From assembly GCA_000687655.1 (NCBI GenBank), contig JHWR01000009.1, forward strand, positions 1 to 64,000: a stretch of 64,000 nt of DNA, read 5' to 3'. Origin of the DNA: Lachnospiraceae bacterium YSB2008. Its GTDB lineage: Bacteria > Bacillota > Clostridia > Lachnospirales > Lachnospiraceae. The translations under genes and the position numbers were made by a program. Positions 1,469-12,896 of the stretch are shown in pieces (position 1 is the first letter of the stretch; each line of letters opens with the position of its first letter). The notes under the pieces were generated by a model that worked only from the letters and a program-made list of their open reading frames with translations, searched no databases and was not told the DNA's origin.

Positions 1469-4075
1469 TCAATAGTTAATTATTACCGCTCCTTCCAGAT
1501 CGGTACGGTATATCCGTATTCCGCGTTCTTCCAATCTATCCAAGGTTTCAGGGGCAGGGTGCCCGTACATGTTATGCCGGCCGCAGGAAATGATAGCTAT
1601 ATCCGGAGAGACAAAATCAAGAAACTCATCTGACGATGAATACTTCGAACCATGATGAGGGCACGCTATAACAAGCTTTTTATTCCTATCCAAAAGAGAG
1701 CTAATATATCCATCCTCAAGAATCAACCTCTCTGCTTCAGAACTTATATCTCCGGTATAAAGTATCTGCACATCTTTATATGTCATAATCGAAACGAGCG
1801 AATAATCATTTCCTGAATTGTGGTCCTCATCCAACTGATTCTTCAAAATGTCAGCATGATTATCATAACCATTTCCATCGGGATATATAATGTCAAATGT
1901 AATGTCCCCGAAGCTTACCCGGTCACCGGCATTCAGATGCATATAGTCTTTTCCAAAGTTTGACCTGATTTCCGACAAAGGTTCATCGATTTCCGTCCCG
2001 AGCGGAAGCGCCACTTCTGAAATCTCAATCCCGTAGAGCTCACGGTTTCTTATCAGTTCTGCTATCCCGCTTATATGATCTTTATCCGAATGTGTGATAA
2101 AGCAGATATCAATCCTGCTTATCCCGTAGTACTTAAGTGCAGGAACAAGAGCATATTCACCGACCTTTTCCTGTGAACTTGAACCTGCATCATAAATATA
2201 ATTACCGGACGTTCCGCCGTGAATGATAAACCCGTTCCCCTGACCAACATCAAGAAAGACTACTCCTTTGTCATTCATATTTCTAACAGAAGTTGTAGCA
2301 ATAAAGAGAATGTACAGCAAGACTCCCGCAGCTATATATATCAAAAGTCTTCCAAGCTTCTCTTTCGTTGTTATTTCGATTGAATACTTCAGCTGCCGAT
2401 TTCTTTTCATCCCTCGCTTTATTCTTCTTGAAAATCTCCGGATTGGTCCGGATTGAAACTTCCTTACCGCCCCCGGTTGAATCAGTCCTGCCGGCTTGTT
2501 GTTTTTCAGTTTGCCTGTCCACTTTACTTTTGCCGAAAGTCCTTCATAGTAAACAGTAAATGCATATATAAGAATCACAAGCATCACATAGTATATCCAT
2601 ATCCACCCTATAGTCGTATGTCCCGGAATCAACCTGTTGAAAGGAAGTTTTATCATGACTCTGCAAAGAAATTCATACAGTTTTAGAACGGTTTCAGCCA
2701 GATATCCTGCCACCCTTCCGGGGTCAAAATATCCCAACATATCTGATATACTTCCCGGAACAAAACCGCCCAGAATTCCCGCTACGAATCCTGCAGCAAC
2801 AACAACAGTCAGAAGTGGTACTACAATCAGGTTGAGCAGCATGCCGTAAAGAGGCACTTCGTAATAGTAATATATGACGATAGGCAGCATCGTTACATTT
2901 ATAGAAAAAGACATGACAAATGAAACGACTGCCCCTTTAACATACTTCCTGTATTTAAGCGGCACCCGGAGAAAACGTTCTCTTCCGAACAGAACTTTGT
3001 ACATATGGCTTCCTACCATCACTCCAAAAGCCGCAGCAACACTCATGATGCATCCGGCACTGAGTGTAATATATGGAGTGAAGAGGCTCATGATAATAAG
3101 TGCTATGACGAGAGAGGTCGCCATGTCATCTGTCCTCCTGAACTTCTCGCCCCACATTGAAATGATCAGCATTATCACAGCTCTCATGGTAGACGCTGCA
3201 AAACCGGTCATAGTCCCATACATGAGCAGTATTGACATGGATATAAGCACTGCAGCTGTATTTGGTATTCCTGTACTTCGAAGCATCTTTCTGATAAATG
3301 CACCGATAAGCATTACATGCAGGGATGATATTGCCAGTATGTGGATTATTCCGTTTTCCTGATAAAGTTTCTTTATCTCATCATCTATTCCACCTCTCTC
3401 TCCTAGTATCATGGCAGAAACAATACCTGCGGATTTAGGCGACATATTTCTGTAAATGCCTTCTTTCATCCTGCACCTTATCAAGAAAAGTACATATCGA
3501 GCATAATTCTTCTTTCCGGTCTTTTGGATGTTTTCTGTTCTCAAGCGACAGCACACGCCTTTACCGGTATAATAATCCTTCTCACTGTATCCACCCGGAT
3601 TGGAAGCGGTCTTCAGTTCCTCAGTATCCCCGTTGATCAAAACTATATCCCCTTCAGTATATGGAATCTCCCCTGATTCCGAATCTGTTTCATCCTCTCC
3701 GTCCCTGCTCAAAACTATAAGGAATTTCCTCCCCCTCTTCACATCCTTTACTGTCATTGAAATGGTCTTTTCTTTTTCATTGATCGAGATTATATCTGCC
3801 TTTAAATCTGCGATGCGCGGATTACTGTCATCGGTATTTACCATGGAATCCCTATATCTATATGCGATTCCGATTGTGAGTCCCAGCACAAGAAATAAAA
3901 AATGCAACAGATACGAGCATTTTTTTCTTTGCTCAGAGTATCTGTTGCATATTATTACAATTATCAGTGACAGCGCCGCTGCCGATATGAAGACTTCCCA
4001 TTTGCTGATAAACGAAACGGCCATGATCTCCCCCATCAGAATCAGAGCCCCCGTCCAGACTAACGGTCTTCTCAA
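1469..4075 (-). CDS. comEC: ComEC/Rec2-family DNA uptake channel with MBL domain
   Basis: This is an inner-membrane protein that, in competent bacteria, passes single-stranded DNA into the cytoplasm. The 868-residue protein starts with two membrane segments and a soluble OB-like stretch (about residues 60-180), continues with a multi-helix Competence domain (about 215-510, with GIIHILAISSLHVMLIG) and ends in a metallo-beta-lactamase-like domain (about 620-868). That domain carries FLDVGQGNGFIIH and the metal motif THSDKDHISG near residue 660, plus ACPHHGSKYSSS and SCGRHNMYGHP. All three canonical regions are present and the length is full. No other competence genes are nearby, so transformation may be conditional or absent. 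It lies 78 bp after the lipoprotein gene on the same strand and is probably co-transcribed. Confidence 0.95.
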   Translation of the reverse strand: MRRPLVWTGALILMGEIMAVSFISKWEVFISAAALSLIIVIICNRYSEQRKKCSYLLHFLFLVLGLTIGIAYRYRDSMVNTDDSNPRIADLKADIISINEKEKTISMTVKDVKRGRKFLIVLSRDGEDETDSESGEIPYTEGDIVLINGDTEELKTASNPGGYSEKDYYTGKGVCCRLRTENIQKTGKKNYARYVLFLIRCRMKEGIYRNMSPKSAGIVSAMILGERGGIDDEIKKLYQENGIIHILAISSLHVMLIGAFIRKMLRSTGIPNTAAVLISMSILLMYGTMTGFAASTMRAVIMLIISMWGEKFRRTDDMATSLVIALIIMSLFTPYITLSAGCIMSVAAAFGVMVGSHMYKVLFGRERFLRVPLKYRKYVKGAVVSFVMSFSINVTMLPIVIYYYYEVPLYGMLLNLIVVPLLTVVVAAGFVAGILGGFVPGSISDMLGYFDPGRVAGYLAETVLKLYEFLCRVMIKLPFNRLIPGHTTIGWIWIYYVMLVILIYAFTVYYEGLSAKVKWTGKLKNNKPAGLIQPGAVRKFQSGPIRRFSRRIKRGMKRNRQLKYSIEITTKEKLGRLLIYIAAGVLLYILFIATTSVRNMNDKGVVFLDVGQGNGFIIHGGTSGNYIYDAGSSSQEKVGEYALVPALKYYGISRIDICFITHSDKDHISGIAELIRNRELYGIEISEVALPLGTEIDEPLSEIRSNFGKDYMHLNAGDRVSFGDITFDIIYPDGNGYDNHADILKNQLDEDHNSGNDYSLVSIMTYKDVQILYTGDISSEAERLILEDGYISSLLDRNKKLVIACPHHGSKYSSSDEFLDFVSPDIAIISCGRHNMYGHPAPETLDRLEERGIRIYRTDLEGAVIINY

Positions 4076-4153: not shown

Positions 4154-4648
4154 TTACATATAAATAAACGAAGCATCCGTATATGTAGCTTTATCTACTG
4201 AAGTTCCTCCTTCATCCAGAACATCTATTACAACCTTGTTAATATTATGAATCTGAACAAGTGTCTTTACCAGTGCAGCTTTTATCATAAGCCTGCTTTC
4301 CTCATTTGAAGAAACATCCTGAATCGTGATTATGACATTACTGTTTTCATCAACCGTGTATCCTACATACTGCATCACTTCAGGAACAGTAAATTCTGTC
4401 ATGATTTCTTCAACTGCTGCAGGTATGGATTCCGGCTGCTTCAACTGATATCTTTCACTTCTCTCCTGAATACGGTCATCACCCACTTCATATATTGTGA
4501 CCATGCTGTTCTCATTTATGATTCCTGTAACAGAAAGGGCAGTTGAATCCTCCTTATCCTTCTTACCACATGAATTAAGGAATGTTACGGACACAAGAAG
4601 CAGCACCAGGATATATGCAGTTTTATAACAAAGCTTATTCCTTCTCAT
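4154..4648 (-). CDS. GerMN-domain-like lipoprotein
   Basis: The start is placed at the ATG at 4648 (MRRNKLCYK), after GGTGA and inside the kinase gene. A longer in-frame reading from 4735 would put a long tail before the signal peptide. The protein has a lipoprotein signal with lipobox LNSC about residue 27, then roughly 135 residues outside the membrane. The region around PAAVEEIMTEF and KAALVKTLVQIHNINKVVIDV resembles the GerMN fold found in spore germination protein GerM and in other cell-surface lipoproteins. That similarity is by eye and moderate. The gene overlaps the kinase 3' end by 14 bp, which suggests coupled translation and a functional link to the kinase. Confidence 0.65.
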   Translation of the reverse strand: MRRNKLCYKTAYILVLLLVSVTFLNSCGKKDKEDSTALSVTGIINENSMVTIYEVGDDRIQERSERYQLKQPESIPAAVEEIMTEFTVPEVMQYVGYTVDENSNVIITIQDVSSNEESRLMIKAALVKTLVQIHNINKVVIDVLDEGGTSVDKATYTDASFIYM

Positions 4649-6104
4649 TTGATTCACCGGTCTTCTGATCTGACACTCTGTACTTCTGACTGATTGGAAA
4701 CTTGATAGTAAATGTCGTTCCATTTCCGAATTCACTGTAAAGCTTTATGGTTCCACCATGTGAGAATATTATATTTCTCGCTATGGCAAGTCCGAGACCT
4801 GTACCTCCTGTACTTCGGCTTCTTGCCTTATCCACACGATAGAATCTGTCAAAAACCTTATCCTTTGCATCATCCGGAATACCTATACCGGAATCTGCAA
4901 CCTTGATATAGAAAAACTTGGCGTCAGCATTAAGAGTAATCCTTACCCATCCATTATCAACGTTATATTTTATGGCATTGGTTATTATGTTTGAAATAAC
5001 GAGGAGAAGCTTAACCTCATCAACCTCAGCTATTACATCTTTATATGCATTGTACTGAATCTCTATACCTCTTGCCTCTGCTATAGGTGATACTCTCTTG
5101 ATGATAATCTCTATAAGTTCCCCTATACTGTGCTCTTCAAGATTGAGCTCAGAATTTCTCTTGTCCGTTTTAACAAGCGTAAGAAGATCATTGATAAGCT
5201 TGGTCTCTCGGTCAACCTCATCTATGATATCTCCCATGAATTCCCTGTAATCATCAGCACTTGCGTTTTCATTCTGTACAAGTGATTCCGCAAGAACCTT
5301 CATGGAAGTCATCGGGGTCTTCAGCTCGTGCGATACATTTGAAACAAATTCCTGTCTGGCATCATCTATGGAATCAAGTTTGCCCAGGACATTATTGTAA
5401 TTGTCAGCAAGATATCGGACTTCCTGAAATCCTCTTACTTCGATCTCAGTATCGAAGTTTCCTTCAGCTATGTTACCTATCTGCTCATTTACTGAATTAA
5501 GTTCTCTTACTGCAACTCTTGAAACGAACAATGCATACAGTACTCCAAGGAGAAGCACTATAAAAAGCGCCACAACATTGACGTGAAGTATCTGCTCATG
5601 AATGGCATTTACCCTTGCAGTAGAGGCAACAGAAAGTACAGCTCCTCTTATAACGCCTTTATCATCCTTAACAGGAATGATGACTGTTGAATCACCATTT
5701 TTTACTGTCTTTATGGATGCCTTTTTTCCCGTCATGACGTCGATTACATCACGTGAGACTATATAAAGGTAGTCATTCCTGTTTTCAGCAAGACTTTCCG
5801 AATCAGCGATTATGGAATAATCCCTTCCTATCGCCAGTATTCTTCCTTCCTGGCCTATGGAAGCTTCTTCGACATATGCATCAAAATGCGCTTTGTCATA
5901 ATTCTCATCCAGCATTCGATCAGCAATCCTGCCGGCGATATTCTCATTCATGAATATGACATTCTGATCGGTACTTCTGTAAGAAAAGAAAAGCACGATG
6001 GATGACACAGCCGCAAGGCTTATGACAAGCAGGAATATCATGGTTACAGCCACAAAGCTCCTGAGACTAATATGAAATTTTTCGCTTTTCTTTTCTTCGT
6101 TCAT
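4635..6104 (-). CDS. Membrane sensor histidine kinase, no adjacent response regulator
   Basis: The 489-residue kinase has a first membrane helix at about 15-37, an extracytoplasmic sensor region of about 130 residues, a second helix near 178-198, a HAMP domain, then HisKA with FVSNVSHELKTPM (phosphorylated His near 260). The ATPase domain shows N-box NAIKYN, G1 DSGIGIP, F-box FYRVDKARS and G2 GGTGLGLAI. All catalytic motifs are intact. No PAS domain is evident, which argues against a WalK assignment. Its start codon overlaps the ppk1 stop by one base (TGATG), so the two are probably translationally coupled. No response regulator is encoded anywhere in the window, so its partner must lie elsewhere. 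Confidence 0.93.
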   Translation of the reverse strand: MNEEKKSEKFHISLRSFVAVTMIFLLVISLAAVSSIVLFFSYRSTDQNVIFMNENIAGRIADRMLDENYDKAHFDAYVEEASIGQEGRILAIGRDYSIIADSESLAENRNDYLYIVSRDVIDVMTGKKASIKTVKNGDSTVIIPVKDDKGVIRGAVLSVASTARVNAIHEQILHVNVVALFIVLLLGVLYALFVSRVAVRELNSVNEQIGNIAEGNFDTEIEVRGFQEVRYLADNYNNVLGKLDSIDDARQEFVSNVSHELKTPMTSMKVLAESLVQNENASADDYREFMGDIIDEVDRETKLINDLLTLVKTDKRNSELNLEEHSIGELIEIIIKRVSPIAEARGIEIQYNAYKDVIAEVDEVKLLLVISNIITNAIKYNVDNGWVRITLNADAKFFYIKVADSGIGIPDDAKDKVFDRFYRVDKARSRSTGGTGLGLAIARNIIFSHGGTIKLYSEFGNGTTFTIKFPISQKYRVSDQKTGESNEKE

Positions 6105-8167
6105 CAGTCAGTCATCTTAATTCCTGCAAGCTCATAAGCTTTGTCGTACAGCTTCTCCTGAGCATTTACAGGTGGTTCTGTATGTGTAACATATCTATAA
6201 ATTCCATCAGCGCCCTGTTCTCTTGCCTTAACATTATCCGCAAGGCAGAGATTGAAGAGCTCTCGTACTTCATCTTTAATGTCCGGATCAAGTATCGGCG
6301 TAGCCACCTCTACTCTTCTGACAGTATTTCTGGTCATGAAGTCAGCTGAAGCGATATATATCTCTTCGCGCTCACCCTTACCGAATATATAAATCCTCGA
6401 ATGTTCAAGGAATCTTCCGACGATACTGATAATTCTGATATTATCAGTCTTGCCCGGAATCTTGGAATGAAGACAGCATATACCTCTTATGACCATCTCA
6501 ACCTTAACACCGGCCTCAGAAGCCTCTATGATCTTATCTATGATTTTCTTGTCAGTAAGTGAATTGATCTTGAATCCGAGATATCCTTCACCACCGTCTT
6601 TTGCTATCTGTATCTCACTGTTGATCCTGTCTATGATCTTGTTCTGCAGACACTTAGGAGCAACGAGAAGACTCTGCGTAGTCTTCATAACCTCGCCGAG
6701 TGAAAGAGTCTGGAATACCTTGGCAGCCTCTGCACCGATCTTTTCATTTGCTGTCATAACACTGAGATCTGTGTAAAGACGGGCAGTCTTTTCATTATAG
6801 TTACCGGTTCCGATCTGAGTTATATACTTAACTCCGTCGGCTGTACGCATGGTTATAAGGCACAGTTTACTGTGAACCTTTAATCCGTTCAGACCGTAAA
6901 TGACATGACAGCCGGCCTGCTCGAGCATACGTGACCATCCTATATTGTTTTCTTCATCGAATCTGGCTTTGAGCTCGACAAGTACGTCAACCTGCTTTCC
7001 ATTTTCAGCCGCTTCAACAAGAGCTTCTATGACCTTACTCTGCTTTGCAAGACGATAAAGTGTCATCTTGATGGACACAACTTCAGGATCATTTGCAGCC
7101 TCGTGAAGCATATTAAGGAACGGTCTTATGCTCTCATATGGATATGAAAGGAACTTATCCTTCTCAAGTATCTGTGGAAGAAGCGGTTTTCTCTCATCAA
7201 AATCATTTGATTTCTGAGGAATCCTCTTCTCATAGAAAAGCTCTGATTTATTTCTGAGTGAATCCTGAATATCGAATACGAAAGACATATCAAGAGGAGA
7301 CTGTATCTTGAACGCCATATTCTTATCTATCTTAAGTGTCTTAACTATGGACTTAAGAGCTGACTCGTCTATATCTCTTGTATACTCTATACGTACAGGA
7401 GTGAGCTTACGTCTCTGCTTGATAACCTCCTCCATATGATCACGGTAGTTCAGTTCCTCGTCATAAACCTTATCAGCATCTATATCTGCATTTCTTGTGA
7501 CTCTGAAAAGAGTCTTGCTTACTATATTATAGCCCTGGAAAACTTCCGGTATGAAATGAAGTATCAGCTCCTCAGCGAGCATATATACTCCTTTTCGGCC
7601 CGGTATCTCTATAAGCCTTTTGAACATTCCATTGTTACATGGAATGATACCTATCCTCTTCTTATTACTCTTTGTTCCGAGAACAGCAGCTGCACATATC
7701 TCATTATTCTTAAGAAATGGAAATGGCTGTTTCTTACTTACAGTAATAGGTGAAAGAAGCGGCATGATTTCTCTCTCGAAGTACATTCTGAGATATTCAC
7801 CTTCAGATTCAGCAAGCTTCGAGAAACGTATGATGTGTATATCTTCTTTCTCAAGCTCCGTCATAAGCTTCTTATATGTTGCATCTTTTCTTTTAGTAAG
7901 TTCCCTTACTCTTTCTCTGATAGCTTCAAGCTGTTCGCCCGGAGTCATGTTGGTCTTATTTTCTCTCTGTTCGTCACCAAGAAGCATCTCATCATGGAGA
8001 GACCCTACTCTGACCATGAAGAACTCATCCAGATTTGTCTGGAATATGGAAATGAAACTCAGTCTTTCACAAAGAGGATTTCTCTCATCCTCTGCTTCCT
8101 CCAGAACTCTTTCGTTGAATTTGAGCCATGATAATTCTCTGTTTTCGTATAATTCCTGCATTTGCAA
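6104..8167 (-). CDS. ppk1: Polyphosphate kinase 1
   Basis: The enzyme reversibly polymerises the gamma phosphate of ATP into inorganic polyphosphate. The 687-residue protein has the normal PPK1 order: N-terminal ENRELSWLKFNERVL, the head domain, and two phospholipase D-like C-terminal domains. The autophosphorylated His is in GLKVHSKLCLI near residue 432. The second domain shows CCLHSKIPG and RFLEHSRIYIFG. Length and motifs are complete. A strong GGAGG site lies 8 bases before the ATG. It is the first gene of a ppk1/kinase/lipoprotein/comEC run. A palindrome immediately upstream may control it. Confidence 0.97.
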   Translation of the reverse strand: MQMQELYENRELSWLKFNERVLEEAEDERNPLCERLSFISIFQTNLDEFFMVRVGSLHDEMLLGDEQRENKTNMTPGEQLEAIRERVRELTKRKDATYKKLMTELEKEDIHIIRFSKLAESEGEYLRMYFEREIMPLLSPITVSKKQPFPFLKNNEICAAAVLGTKSNKKRIGIIPCNNGMFKRLIEIPGRKGVYMLAEELILHFIPEVFQGYNIVSKTLFRVTRNADIDADKVYDEELNYRDHMEEVIKQRRKLTPVRIEYTRDIDESALKSIVKTLKIDKNMAFKIQSPLDMSFVFDIQDSLRNKSELFYEKRIPQKSNDFDERKPLLPQILEKDKFLSYPYESIRPFLNMLHEAANDPEVVSIKMTLYRLAKQSKVIEALVEAAENGKQVDVLVELKARFDEENNIGWSRMLEQAGCHVIYGLNGLKVHSKLCLITMRTADGVKYITQIGTGNYNEKTARLYTDLSVMTANEKIGAEAAKVFQTLSLGEVMKTTQSLLVAPKCLQNKIIDRINSEIQIAKDGGEGYLGFKINSLTDKKIIDKIIEASEAGVKVEMVIRGICCLHSKIPGKTDNIRIISIVGRFLEHSRIYIFGKGEREEIYIASADFMTRNTVRRVEVATPILDPDIKDEVRELFNLCLADNVKAREQGADGIYRYVTHTEPPVNAQEKLYDKAYELAGIKMTD

Positions 8168-8969: not shown

Positions 8970-9055
8970 ATTTACATAATTCTGTAACACAGCTTTACAT
9001 AATATTTACACTTTTGGCACATTGTTAAACACATTGCCACACAATCTTCATATTT

Positions 9056-9072
9056 TGTTACAAAAGTGTTAC
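9056..9072 (+). promoter_or_regulatory. WalR (YycF)-like direct repeat
   Basis: TGTTAC-AAAAG-TGTTAC is a perfect match to the published WalR box, TGT(A/T)A(A/T/C)-N5-TGT(A/T)A(A/T/C). It lies about 11 bp upstream of the predicted -35 of the M23 peptidase gene, a position suited to activation. WalRK in Firmicutes controls wall hydrolases, so site and target agree. No walR gene is in the window. Confidence 0.6.
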
Positions 9073-9082
9073 AAATTTACTC

Positions 9083-9111
9083 TTCCATTTATGAAAAAAC
9101 TATGCTATAAT
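9083..9111 (+). promoter_or_regulatory. Predicted promoter of the M23 peptidase gene
   Basis: The extended -10 TGCTATAAT ends at 9111 with a poor -35 (TTCCAT, 9083-9088) at 17 bp. Transcription would start near 9118. A weak -35 plus an upstream direct repeat fits activator dependence. The start near 9118 excludes the upstream ATG at 9113 as translation start. Confidence 0.6.
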
Positions 9112-9151
9112 CATGAAGCCAATGATTATAATATATAACGGAGGTAAAAAA

Positions 9152-10492
9152 GTGAGATCAAAACTTAGAAAATCGATCTCCAAGGGACTTATAGGCGTAA
9201 TGCTTATCGGTACCGGTCTCTCCATGGCAAATGTACCGGCGTCAACGGTTCATGCTGAAAAGGAGAAGACTAAAGAAGAGATTGAGAAAGAAAAAGAAGA
9301 GATTGAACAGGAAAAGAAAGAAAAAGAATCTGAACTCTCTCAGCTGAACTCAGCAAAGAAGAAGATTCTTGATGAGATTGAAGTTCTCGACGGAAAGATA
9401 GTTGATTCTGAAGATAAGATCAGAGAACTCACCAACGAGAGAAACAAGCTTGAATCTGAAATATCTGTTATCGACCTTAAGCTCCAGAATGCTTACGTTG
9501 CTGAAAATAATCAGTACGCTGAGATGAAGGAACGTATAAGATTCGCATATGAGAACAACGATGTTGAATATATCGATGCTCTTCTCGCTGTAACAGATTT
9601 CGACAACATCAACAATGCTGCCGAATATGTTTCAAAGATTTCTGCATATGATCAGGCTCAGCTGAATTCACTTATCAAGATTGAAGCTGAAATATCTGAA
9701 TATCAGGAAACACTTGAGCAGAACCTGACAAGCATCAACACTCTTAAGAGCGATGCTGAAACAGAGAAAGCTAATCTTGTTGAAAACGAAGCTGCTAAGC
9801 AGGCAAAGGTTAAGGAATTCAACGGAGAGATTACTGAAACTCAGATTGATATAGCAGAACTTGCAGAGCTTGAAAGACAGGCTGATGCCGAGCTCGAAAG
9901 ACTCGCTGCTGCTGCTCCTAAGGTTGTCACTGTTACCGAAACAGTAACTGAGACCATAACTGTAGAGGTTCCTGTAACAAAGACTGTTACTAAGCCTTCA
10001 AAGACAGCAAGTAGTACTGATGCAACAAAGACAACTACTCAGACTACTACAGAGGTTCAGACTCAGACAGTAACAAAGCAGGTTCAGGTAGCAAGCTTCT
10101 CAGGTGGTTTCATATGGCCTTGCCCATCAAGCCACAGAATCACTTCTACATTCGGTGGACGTGCATCACCTGGTGGTATCGGTTCTACTAACCACAAGGG
10201 TATCGATATCGGCGCAGGTTCAGGATCAAGCGTAGTTGCTGCCGCAGGCGGTGCAGTATACTTCGTAGGTTATAACAGAGCAAGAGGAAATTATGTCATG
10301 GTTAACCATGGCGGCGGATTCGTAACTGTTTACCAGCATCTTTCAGGATTCAACTGTTCAGTCGGACAGGCAGTATCACAGGGTGATTGTATCGGTTTCG
10401 TAGGTTCAACAGGATACAGTACAGGACCTCACCTCCACTTCGAGGTAGTCATCAACGGAACACCTGTTAACCCACTCGGTTACGTACACTAA
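9152..10492 (+). CDS. Secreted coiled-coil M23 (LytM-type) peptidoglycan peptidase
   Basis: The start is placed at the GTG at 9152, which follows GGAGG (9140-9144) by 7 bases; an in-frame ATG at 9113 lies ahead of the predicted transcript start. The 446-residue product has a signal peptide ending near VHA-E (about residue 36), a long Glu/Lys-rich coiled coil to about 250, a Thr/Val-rich linker with TVTETVTET-type repeats, and a C-terminal LytM domain. Zinc ligands are in HKGIDIG near 347 and HLHFE near 427, so the domain should be active. The architecture resembles EnvC/CwlO/PcsB-type hydrolases, in which a coiled coil is thought to gate a cell-separation or elongation hydrolase. Confidence 0.95.
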   Translation: MRSKLRKSISKGLIGVMLIGTGLSMANVPASTVHAEKEKTKEEIEKEKEEIEQEKKEKESELSQLNSAKKKILDEIEVLDGKIVDSEDKIRELTNERNKLESEISVIDLKLQNAYVAENNQYAEMKERIRFAYENNDVEYIDALLAVTDFDNINNAAEYVSKISAYDQAQLNSLIKIEAEISEYQETLEQNLTSINTLKSDAETEKANLVENEAAKQAKVKEFNGEITETQIDIAELAELERQADAELERLAAAAPKVVTVTETVTETITVEVPVTKTVTKPSKTASSTDATKTTTQTTTEVQTQTVTKQVQVASFSGGFIWPCPSSHRITSTFGGRASPGGIGSTNHKGIDIGAGSGSSVVAAAGGAVYFVGYNRARGNYVMVNHGGGFVTVYQHLSGFNCSVGQAVSQGDCIGFVGSTGYSTGPHLHFEVVINGTPVNPLGYVH

Positions 10493-10504: not shown

Positions 10505-10535
10505 GGGCGGATTCATTTGAATCCGCCCTTTCTTT
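10505..10535 (+). terminator. Intrinsic terminator of the M23 gene
   Basis: GGGCGGATTC-attt-GAATCCGCCC is a perfect 10-bp stem followed by TTTCTTT, 12 bases after the stop. Confidence 0.92.
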
Positions 10536-10619: not shown

Positions 10620-12896
10620 TTACTTAGTATTTGCAAGCTCACCTGCCATAAGATATATGAGCGGTGAGTTCCAATAGATTGTTACTTCGTTAGTTGAATA
10701 GCTCTGTGAGTTATCTGCGTAGCACTTAGCTGCCGGTGTGTCCTTAAGTACATTCTGTACAAATGGATCCTCCAGATTACTGTCAGGGCCTCCTGAAAGC
10801 ATTCCAGGCACTGCCTTTCCGGTTGCCTGTGAAGGTCTGTGGTGTGGATGTTCCGGTGAGATTGCTCCGAATCCTGTAAGGAAACAGTAACCCGTTGCAT
10901 TATTACCAAATAAGTAGTTCAGCTGCTTGTCTGCTACTGCTTTATTATCTGATCCTATAACATCCTTCATCATAAGGACGAATTCTCCGTTGTTTGCTAT
11001 AGTCATGTTACTTCCCCATGGATATGTACCAACTATAGATGAGCCGTATGAATAAGAATTCGTATTGTCTACGATATCCTTACACATTGCTTCTGCTTCT
11101 TTCTTTACTGTATCCTTTGTTCCTGCATCAGCACCATCTGCTGTGAGATAAGCATATCCGCCGTATCCGGCAACGCCCTGCCATCCGAGTGAGTATCCGT
11201 TGTCCGGAAGTTCCTTCTTCATAGCATCCTCATAGCTCTTATTCCCTGTTGTCTTAAAGAGTTCTGCATATGCCCAGAATCTCTCATCAACATCATTTAC
11301 ATCTTCATATTCACCTGTTGTTACATCACTTGGGTTCTTATAACCCTTTGTATCTCTTGGAGTCTTCTGCAGGTATTCGGCTGCCTTCTTCGCTGCAGCC
11401 AGGCATTTATCTGCATAAGCCTTATCTGAATCTGCATATACTCTCGAAGCTATCGACATAACTGCCGCGAAGTCGGCTGTTGCTGTTGTACTTACAGGCA
11501 TTACCACAAGCTGATCTGTCTCTTCCTCCGGCATTACCTCGTTAGGGAAGGTCTTACATGTTACCTTATGATATACACCGCCGTCATCGCTCTGCATCTT
11601 AAGAAGCCAGTCAAGCTCATATCTTGCTTCATCGAGAATGTCAGGCGTTCCATTTCCACTTTCAGGAATTCCTACTGCATCATCGAATACATCCGGATAG
11701 TTCTCATAAGCCAGAAGAATATCTGCTGCCGCCTTAGCACCTGCTACCGAATATCTTCCGTAATCACCTGCATCATGCCATCCACCTGAAACATCCAGGG
11801 TCTTTGAATTATCCTCATAAAGCACTGCTTTTTCTGAGTGGCAGACAGGATGTGCGAAGTCTCCTGCAAGGTCACTGCTGAGCTCCGTACCGCATCTCTG
11901 ATAGTAGAGCATCTTGATGGAAGCCTTGAAAGCCTCTTCATATACATCCTTACCAATCTTGAAGCTTGCTGAAACGATATCGCCGGATTCTACGTGATAG
12001 GTTCCTTCATCCTTAACAGATGAAAAGTCGAATACCGCTTCCTTTTCGCCTGTATCAGGATCATCTGTTCCTGCTCCTACTTTTTCCTCAAGAACAGCTT
12101 CGCCTGTCTTCTCATCTATGAGCTTAACATCACTGTTAAGTGCATCACCCATGATTGTTGCTGTCTTTGTGGAACCCGGAAGATAGCCTATCTGATTAAC
12201 TGCAATATCAGGAACTTCTATTTCTCCTGCTCCTGCAACCTTATTTGAATCATCCTCAAGAGTCAGAACAAAGTTATCAAAGAATATATGATGTTCGCCG
12301 ATTCCCTCATCGATCCCCTCAACAAGACCCGTATTGAAACAGAATCTCGGTGCCGGATCAGATGTCTCACTCATTGTAAATGTATATTCATAACTCTGAG
12401 TCTCAGTTCCCAGTTCTACTATCTCTTTGTAGTAGGCATGGTAATCACCGCCGTTGATCTGAAATCTCATTTCCACCGGTCTTTCTTTCTCACTGCGTGC
12501 ATCGAATGTCAGCTTATACACACAGCCCTCATCAAGAGCAAAACCGTCATGGTATATCTGAACTCCGTGTTCAACTGTTCCTATATCGGAAACCTTCAGA
12601 TCAAGCTCACCGTCCGAATTGACTGAAATCTCACCAACTCCGTTCTCGCAATAAGTGAACCACTCCTCTATTCCATTTGAGAAATCTCCATTTGTGATAA
12701 GATTTCCGCCTTCGGCTACTTCGACATCCTCGGTAGTGTCTGTAGCGTCTTCCGGGGTAGCCTCTGTCGATTCTGTCACCGCCTCTTTGGTTGTAGCTTC
12801 AGTCGTCGCCGTTTCCTTTCCGCATCCCATCATCTGGAACACGAGAGCCACGGAGAGACCCGCAACCAGGGCACTCCTTAAAACCTTTTTTCTCAT
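10620..12896 (-). CDS. Lipid-anchored glycoside hydrolase family 9 endoglucanase
   Basis: This enzyme cleaves beta-1,4-glucan (cellulose or related glucans) at the cell surface. The 758-residue product has a lipoprotein signal (MMGC, Cys25), an acidic Thr/Glu-rich linker to about 62, a CBM4/9-like module (about 65-212, LITNGDFSNGIEEW), an Ig-like CelD_N domain (about 228-315, VNQIGYLPGS) and a GH9 catalytic domain from about 320. Catalytic features are WHDAGDYGRY near 370 (Asp pair), the HPHHRPS signature near 682 and the acid Glu in STNEVTIYWN near 736. No dockerin or SLH repeats are seen, so attachment is by lipid. It sits 49 bp after the transglutaminase gene on the same strand and has a strong terminator. 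Confidence 0.95.
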   Translation of the reverse strand: MRKKVLRSALVAGLSVALVFQMMGCGKETATTEATTKEAVTESTEATPEDATDTTEDVEVAEGGNLITNGDFSNGIEEWFTYCENGVGEISVNSDGELDLKVSDIGTVEHGVQIYHDGFALDEGCVYKLTFDARSEKERPVEMRFQINGGDYHAYYKEIVELGTETQSYEYTFTMSETSDPAPRFCFNTGLVEGIDEGIGEHHIFFDNFVLTLEDDSNKVAGAGEIEVPDIAVNQIGYLPGSTKTATIMGDALNSDVKLIDEKTGEAVLEEKVGAGTDDPDTGEKEAVFDFSSVKDEGTYHVESGDIVSASFKIGKDVYEEAFKASIKMLYYQRCGTELSSDLAGDFAHPVCHSEKAVLYEDNSKTLDVSGGWHDAGDYGRYSVAGAKAAADILLAYENYPDVFDDAVGIPESGNGTPDILDEARYELDWLLKMQSDDGGVYHKVTCKTFPNEVMPEEETDQLVVMPVSTTATADFAAVMSIASRVYADSDKAYADKCLAAAKKAAEYLQKTPRDTKGYKNPSDVTTGEYEDVNDVDERFWAYAELFKTTGNKSYEDAMKKELPDNGYSLGWQGVAGYGGYAYLTADGADAGTKDTVKKEAEAMCKDIVDNTNSYSYGSSIVGTYPWGSNMTIANNGEFVLMMKDVIGSDNKAVADKQLNYLFGNNATGYCFLTGFGAISPEHPHHRPSQATGKAVPGMLSGGPDSNLEDPFVQNVLKDTPAAKCYADNSQSYSTNEVTIYWNSPLIYLMAGELANTK

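Follow-up and report, generated by a model that had tools for sequence, protein, structure and literature searches.

A candidate WalR/MtrA-type operator at an M23 peptidase promoter and a predicted wall-hydrolase regulon in Lachnospiraceae

A direct repeat stands upstream of a gene for a secreted coiled-coil M23 peptidase (9152..10492, + strand; PF01551, 1.9e-32; GTG start) in Lachnospiraceae bacterium YSB2008, and it raises the question of whether a WalR-like two-component system controls this gene and, if so, which proteins compose it. The window, i.e. the whole stretch of DNA that was analysed, comprises the first 64,000 nucleotides of contig JHWR01000009.1. The operator box TGTTACAAAAGTGTTAC occupies 9056..9072 on the + strand and matches TGTTAC-N5-TGTTAC with 0 mismatches, its two half-sites lying in a direct repeat with a period of 11 bp (copies of TGTTACAAA at positions 9056 and 9067). 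Behind it lies a predicted sigma-A-type promoter (9082..9111, +), found by promoter scoring and conserved in two relatives, with a weak -35 candidate CTTCCA (9082-9087), a spacer of 18 nt and an extended -10 TGCTATAAT (TG-C-TATAAT, 9103-9111); the start of transcription is predicted from the promoter score at about 9118. A generic promoter scan did not list the promoter at 9082-9111. The original prediction of an exact WalR-type box, a weak -35 with an extended -10 and a downstream M23 peptidase was thus accurate in its description of the locus, and its interpretation appears mainly right. Judging from the sequence comparisons that follow, the box is very probably a real docking site of a WalR/MtrA-like two-component regulator.

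The likely start codon of the M23 gene is GTG at 9152, behind the ribosome-binding site GGAGG (9140..9144, +). It was chosen because of this Shine-Dalgarno sequence and the alignment with relatives, and was preferred to ATG at 9113, which adjoins the -10. An intrinsic terminator follows the gene (10505..10528, +), and next to it lies a glycosyl hydrolase family 9 cellulase gene with CBM_4_9 (10620-12896). In the two nearest relatives, whose M23 proteins are the closest homologs (~80% identity), the box and the promoter block 3' of it are identical in 37 of 38 columns, and the sequence farther upstream of the box has diverged. When the 30 highest-ranking M23 matches of the genus are considered, among them the window gene, the box is exact at 7 and has one mismatch at 5 (12/30), compared with no occurrence of the control pattern at 0 or 1 mismatch; five homologs of 44-47% identity carry it with 1 mismatch. 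The other 18, among which L185 is possibly mis-oriented, lack a box at up to one mismatch.

The textbook consensus TGTWAH-N5-TGTWAH occurs 26 times in the 2.69-Mb genome versus 17 times for the reversed pattern and is not clearly enriched, so a stricter TGTWAC form was adopted. This form was chosen after the three exact sites of the own genome had been seen, and the other genomes serve as the independent test. Counted as strand matches, in which each palindromic place scores twice, TGTWAC-N5-TGTWAC is found 6 times (4 places) in the own genome versus 0 for the reversed control, and 329 times versus 45 in 61 genomes of the genus, every one of which (61/61) has at least one match. The enrichment is weaker in 119 other genera of the family (370 versus 199), where 70 genomes lie above their own control and 24 below.

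The genes behind the sites are predominantly wall hydrolases. In the own genome, three of the four strict places precede genes for M23, SH3-NlpC/P60 and SH3-Hydrolase_2 proteins, so the box recurs at two further wall-hydrolase promoters, a check that the original prediction had proposed; the fourth place (C5:33729) lies between two genes that look by eye like solute-binding-protein genes. Across the genus, one locus per genome was sampled from 29 other genomes (L055-L083), and a hydrolase was sought by phmmer within 300 bp downstream of the box, with the own genome's three boxed genes and one boxed amidase locus (L057) as references. A peptidoglycan hydrolase was found just downstream at 21 of the 29 sites versus 0 of 30 control sites, namely 11 NlpC/P60, 6 Hydrolase_2, 2 M23 and 2 amidase-like genes, the last label relying on the L057/L071 match together with a motif recognised by eye; without the amidase reference the count is 19/29. 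Sites of the TGTWAH-N5-TGTWAH form are therefore present at wall-hydrolase promoters. An equal frequency of the box at random sites, which the original prediction had named as refuting it, is not what was observed. The boxes were intergenic at 26/29 sites versus 8/30 controls. Seven of the other sites comprise three within called genes and four before other genes or no gene, and in one further genome (L062, G008:C8:8532) a gene that is MurA-like by eye follows the box at a distance of 103 bp, a target with which the regulon would extend to peptidoglycan synthesis. In the family sample, a hydrolase lies downstream at 6/28 box sites. A riboswitch or other RNA element upstream of the M23 homologs and boxed genes was also considered, and Rfam at gathering threshold gave no match in the 8 loci searched.

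Several regulators could in principle read the motif, as the genome has 16 Trans_reg_C matches and another of these proteins could be the reader. The best YycF-model score among them, ~252 bits (252.2-252.8), belongs to an orphan regulator (C8:62404-63090; model hit at C8:62407-63093), which remains below the YycF/WalR equivalog cut-off (NF040534, 340 bits); it scores 240.8 bits with the RpaB model and 230.6 bits with the MtrA model, also below the cut-off of the latter (NF040689, 300 bits). The best PDB hits of the full-length protein are RegX3 and MtrA, the YycF chains there being single domains. Its DNA-binding domain is closest to WalR/VicR, with VicR 2hwv as the best named hit after two unnamed response regulators, and SaeR 4ixa and YycF 2d1v next and nearly equal; within the stretch GDxRTVDVxVRRLREKIE, two residues are not those of VicR. 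The WalR part of the original prediction therefore holds in that a WalR-like regulator exists, with VicR as its best named domain hit, and falls short in that neither the regulator (252 of 340 bits) nor its presumed kinase (277 of 725 bits) reaches the curated thresholds.

The regulator gene lies downstream of a ComEA-like SLBB/HHH gene. At E <= 1e-60 the regulator has a match in 117/120 family genomes, two of them only ~45% identical. At E <= 1e-80 it is matched in 54/61 genus genomes and was not found in the other 7, all of which carry boxes; draft gaps are possible, and among these seven one genome (G030) is rated 100% complete and another (G047) has 20 motif matches. One genome of the wider family (G152) has no match at 1e-60, yet 8 motif matches. 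The comEA-regulator operon itself carries a box with up to one mismatch at 7/30 genus loci, a count that excludes L069, which had been picked by its motif; the control pattern has nothing below 2 mismatches in 31 loci. No good box was found at this operon in the own genome. A group II intron reverse transcriptase-like gene (L053, C8:56639-57958; by eye) separates the boxed Hydrolase_2 gene from the arginine-type genes that precede the regulator.

The most serious competitor is another OmpR-family regulator, such as the protein encoded at C15:61763-62464, which would read what is still a real hydrolase operator. This protein scores 236 bits with MtrA and 234 bits with YycF and adjoins a WalK-like kinase, and the seven genus genomes that have the box and no C8 regulator match at E <= 1e-80 speak in its favor. 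However, other entries and SaeR rank nearest to its DNA-binding domain, ahead of VicR and YycF, and the best box within 400 nt upstream of its gene has 3 mismatches. The C8 gene itself has 4 mismatches within 400 nt, but its operon begins at comEA, and the comEA-regulator operon carries the box in part of the genus. We consider assignment to another OmpR-family regulator unlikely, and the most likely reader of the box appears to be the C8 regulator. Several observations weigh against this main reading: the regulator is near-universal in the family sample (115/120), where the motif enrichment is weak (370 versus 199) and few sampled sites (6/28) precede a hydrolase; both regulator and kinase are below the curated WalR/WalK cut-offs, and the best full-length PDB hits are RegX3 and MtrA; some genomes have boxes and no regulator match, the own comEA-regulator operon has no good box, 18 of the 30 M23 matches lack one, and the hydrolase references came from boxed genes.

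The most likely cognate kinase, on the evidence of gene neighborhoods, is encoded in the window. A sensor histidine kinase gene (4635..6104, - strand; HisKA + HATPase_c) without an adjacent response regulator is followed by a gene for a GerMN-domain lipoprotein, a candidate accessory sensor (4154..4735, -; exact start uncertain), and by a ComEC homolog (1469..4075, -; PF03772, 2.7e-44), which ends a conserved operon. The polyphosphate kinase gene ppk1 (6104..8167, -; PF17941 + PF13090; TIGR03705 over its cut-off) lies on the other side, and by eye it is directly upstream of the kinase at 28/30 genus kinase loci. The GerMN domain is at threshold in the window (PF10646, 23.1 versus 23 bits) and stronger in two homologous operons, and the lipoprotein nature of the product was read from its N-terminus by eye. 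Of the kinases in the genome, that of the window has the most WalK-like core, with 277 bits (238.4 in the genome scan) against the WalK equivalog, which requires 725 bits (NF033092), its best stretch being the C-terminal core; with the MtrB model it reaches 201.4 of 450 bits (NF040691), and the core shows a likeness to PnpS and PhoR as well.

In 94 of 115 genomes (one per genus, own genome included, the kinase taken as the best family homolog), the kinase homolog lies directly downstream of the C8-regulator homolog, on the same strand and within 1.2 kb. The family order, read by eye, is comEA-regulator-kinase-GerMN lipoprotein-comEC, with Pfam checks of one locus (L318, whose ComEC fragment is below threshold) and of the GerMN gene of a second. 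Since the homologs are neighbors in so many genomes, the window kinase, the GerMN lipoprotein and the C8 regulator most likely form one system. In the own genome this operon is split, with regulator and kinase in separate operons, and no kinase motif was found on the same strand within ~1.5 kb on either side of the regulator in 31 genus comEA-regulator loci. A Germane-domain gene adjoins the kinase in the window and in the two family loci scanned. At 8/30 genus loci (L204, L212, L213, L214, L216, L219, L220 and L222), a single open frame of at least 656 codons spans the kinase and the GerMN-type gene behind it. In the four of these that were scanned, the Germane domain is clear in L212 (84.9 bits), below threshold in two and without a match in one. 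The GerMN part should be extracellular, which implies an extra membrane segment in the single-frame proteins.

How the box would act depends on where it lies relative to the promoter. A simple promoter score, by which all starts are predicted, was applied to the sampled hydrolase genes and to 1050 shuffles. A near-consensus promoter was found at 20/21 hydrolase promoters versus 8/1050 shuffles, and at 17/21 versus 0/1050 the box begins at -1 to +10 of the predicted start, comprising 11/11 NlpC/P60, 5/6 Hydrolase_2 and 1/2 M23 genes. Accordingly, 16/17 sampled NlpC/P60 and Hydrolase_2 genes have a strong promoter whose predicted start is covered by the box, a repressor geometry. The NlpC/P60 and Hydrolase_2 genes of the own genome likewise have a strong promoter, and there the box is placed at its predicted start or immediately after it. 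When these two are added to the 17 sampled cases, 7 of the 19 box-over-start promoters have a further half-site in the -35/-10 spacer, where 0.31 are expected; a second box within 150 bp occurs at 7/23 promoters, a count made without a control. At the window M23 gene and in its two relatives, the box occupies -62 to -46, upstream of a weak -35, and in five other M23 homologs it lies between -59 and -42, so that 8 of the 12 boxed M23 genes (window included) show the activator position, and in 4 the box covers the start. At the two amidase-like genes the box occupies -77 to -61 and -58 to -42.

In S. aureus, activation is associated with WalR sites upstream of the -35, and repression with those that lie between the promoter elements or downstream of them (PMC10746227). 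By this rule, the window M23 gene would be activated and most of the sampled NlpC/P60 and Hydrolase_2 genes repressed. The activation foreseen by the original prediction thus fits the geometry at this M23 gene, at some M23 homologs and at the two amidase-like genes, and does not extend to most targets, where the box lies over the start and repression is predicted. Could the box at the window M23 gene also be a repressor or dual site? The box-over-start arrangement at 17/21 sampled hydrolase promoters and at 4/12 boxed M23 matches points that way, but at the window M23 gene and seven homologs the box precedes a weak -35 at -62 to -42 of the predicted start, which is an activator position for S. 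aureus WalR (PMC10746227), and we regard a repressor or dual role there as improbable. Both geometries, upstream of the -35 and over the start, are present in these genomes, the sign of control being our inference from position. The same box at the promoters of several kinds of hydrolase suggests, by its positions, that some would be switched on and others off.

The surroundings of the box offer two further readings. A second, weaker match TGTAAATATTATGTAAA lies on the - strand at 8994..9010, 45 nt upstream of the main box, and coincides with a TTTACA-N5-TTTACA direct repeat with an 11-bp period (8994-9010). With ppk1 nearby and a kinase core that also resembles PnpS and PhoR, this repeat could belong to a phosphate-type (PhoB/PhoP) array, but 21/29 sampled genus sites precede wall hydrolases and ppk1 is a neighbor only, so this reading is very improbable. 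That the box is a functionless 17-bp chance match in A+T-rich intergenic DNA is more improbable still, as the strict-form enrichment, the hydrolase association, the footprint and the promoter geometry contradict it, even if loose matches abound (the window has 6 at up to 2 mismatches versus 4.0 expected) and the genome shows no clear enrichment of the relaxed WalR consensus. Also upstream of the box, TTTACATAAT occurs twice, at 8971-8980 and 8994-9003, spaced 23 bp; this is statistically weak (2 in the window versus 0.75 expected). One relative has similar TTAACATAAT copies at a roughly equivalent place, and TTTACATAA also recurs at genus hydrolase promoters.

We therefore return to the reading that the box is an operator of an OmpR-family WalR/MtrA-type regulator, likely the C8 protein, which together with the window kinase would control hydrolase genes; we think this probable. 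In such a system, the GerMN lipoprotein would act as an accessory sensor for the kinase, and the regulator, once phosphorylated, would occupy both TGTTAC half-sites as a head-to-tail dimer. For the M23 gene, where the box (-62 to -46) lies just upstream of a poor -35, RNA polymerase recruitment and activation would be expected, and at the NlpC/P60 and Hydrolase_2 genes of the own genome, where it lies at or past the predicted start of a strong promoter, repression would be expected. With activator and repressor positions of one box, a single signal could move the targets in opposite directions: M23 (in relatives, amidase) up, and the D,L-endopeptidase and Hydrolase_2 down.

The system shares with WalRK (YycFG, VicRK) of Bacilli and Clostridioides difficile the TGTWAH-N5-TGTWAH form of the site, the wall-hydrolase targets and the occurrence of sites on either side of promoter elements. 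When WalR was overexpressed in C. difficile, two putative amidases were induced, and an NlpC/P60 gene for which two boxes are predicted was repressed (PMC9210968), a split similar to the geometry split predicted here. It differs from WalRK in that regulator and kinase are below the curated cut-offs and the gene order is comEA-regulator and ppk1-kinase-GerMN-comEC, not that of the wal operon. Moreover, NlpC/P60 genes here look repressed, whereas in B. subtilis WalR activates NlpC/P60-type enzymes. The curated WalR/WalK models may be tuned to Bacilli.

A second likeness is to MtrAB-LpqB of Actinobacteria, where response regulator, kinase and accessory lipoprotein occur together, as they do in the regulator-kinase-GerMN lipoprotein order of other genera of the family; LpqB carries a GerMN domain. 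Published reports describe the MtrA motif as a degenerate direct repeat in an 11-nt register (9-nt repeat, 2-nt spacing) that resembles GTnAC, include wall-metabolism genes in the MtrA regulon (PMC6265350) and state that the lipoprotein LpqB modulates the MtrB kinase (PMC5487470). The present module differs in that it misses the MtrA and MtrB cut-offs (230.6/300 and 201.4/450 bits), occurs in Lachnospiraceae-type genomes and is embedded among comE genes. CenKR of Alphaproteobacteria is likewise an envelope two-component system whose regulator binds a direct repeat (PMC9275681), but its motif is TGA-N8-TGA and the phylum is another. Because the cut-offs are missed and the gene order recalls MtrAB-LpqB, WalR/MtrA-type is the safe name, and the system is best called a WalR/MtrA-type wall-hydrolase regulon, the curated cut-offs not placing it within WalRK in the strict sense. 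Among the open-licence papers listed by our searches, none was devoted to a Lachnospiraceae Wal regulon; one of them (PMC8470499) mentions both WalRK and Lachnospiraceae.

Three features are new here: a regulator-kinase module that is split, an operator with two geometries, and repression as the predicted control of NlpC/P60 and Hydrolase_2 genes. A broader proposal, toward which we are almost evenly balanced and lean slightly against, is that Lachnospiraceae have a distinct, undescribed branch of WalRK/MtrAB: a comE-embedded regulator-kinase-GerMN module whose sign would be opposite to that in Bacillus, with D,L-endopeptidases repressed and M23 enzymes and amidases activated. In the genus, the operon would have broken between regulator and kinase with the regulon left intact, and kinase-GerMN fusions would place the lipoprotein within the sensor. 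For this large family of gut bacteria, the analysis derives a predicted wall-control regulon from sequence, names its operators and targets and proposes a candidate regulator and kinase as the pair in charge. Since activation and repression geometries of one operator coexist in a single genome, the position rule can be tested directly there, and the link between kinase and lipoprotein provides a handle on what such systems sense.

Two minor observations concern other elements and lineages. Six M23 homologs (L167, L170, L172, L174, L176 and L190) have a recurrent 5' element like GTATACATAA...TTATGGTAAAC, of which GTAAACATAA is a variant in L176 and L190. It lies shortly before the start codon, often just past the predicted transcription start, and occurs with or without the box; Rfam gave no match for it in L174, L176 and L190, and it is possibly another operator or an RNA element. 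Outside the genus, one family genome (G077) has 18 motif matches versus 7 for the control, including clusters of overlapping boxes, and is possibly a second lineage with an expanded regulon.
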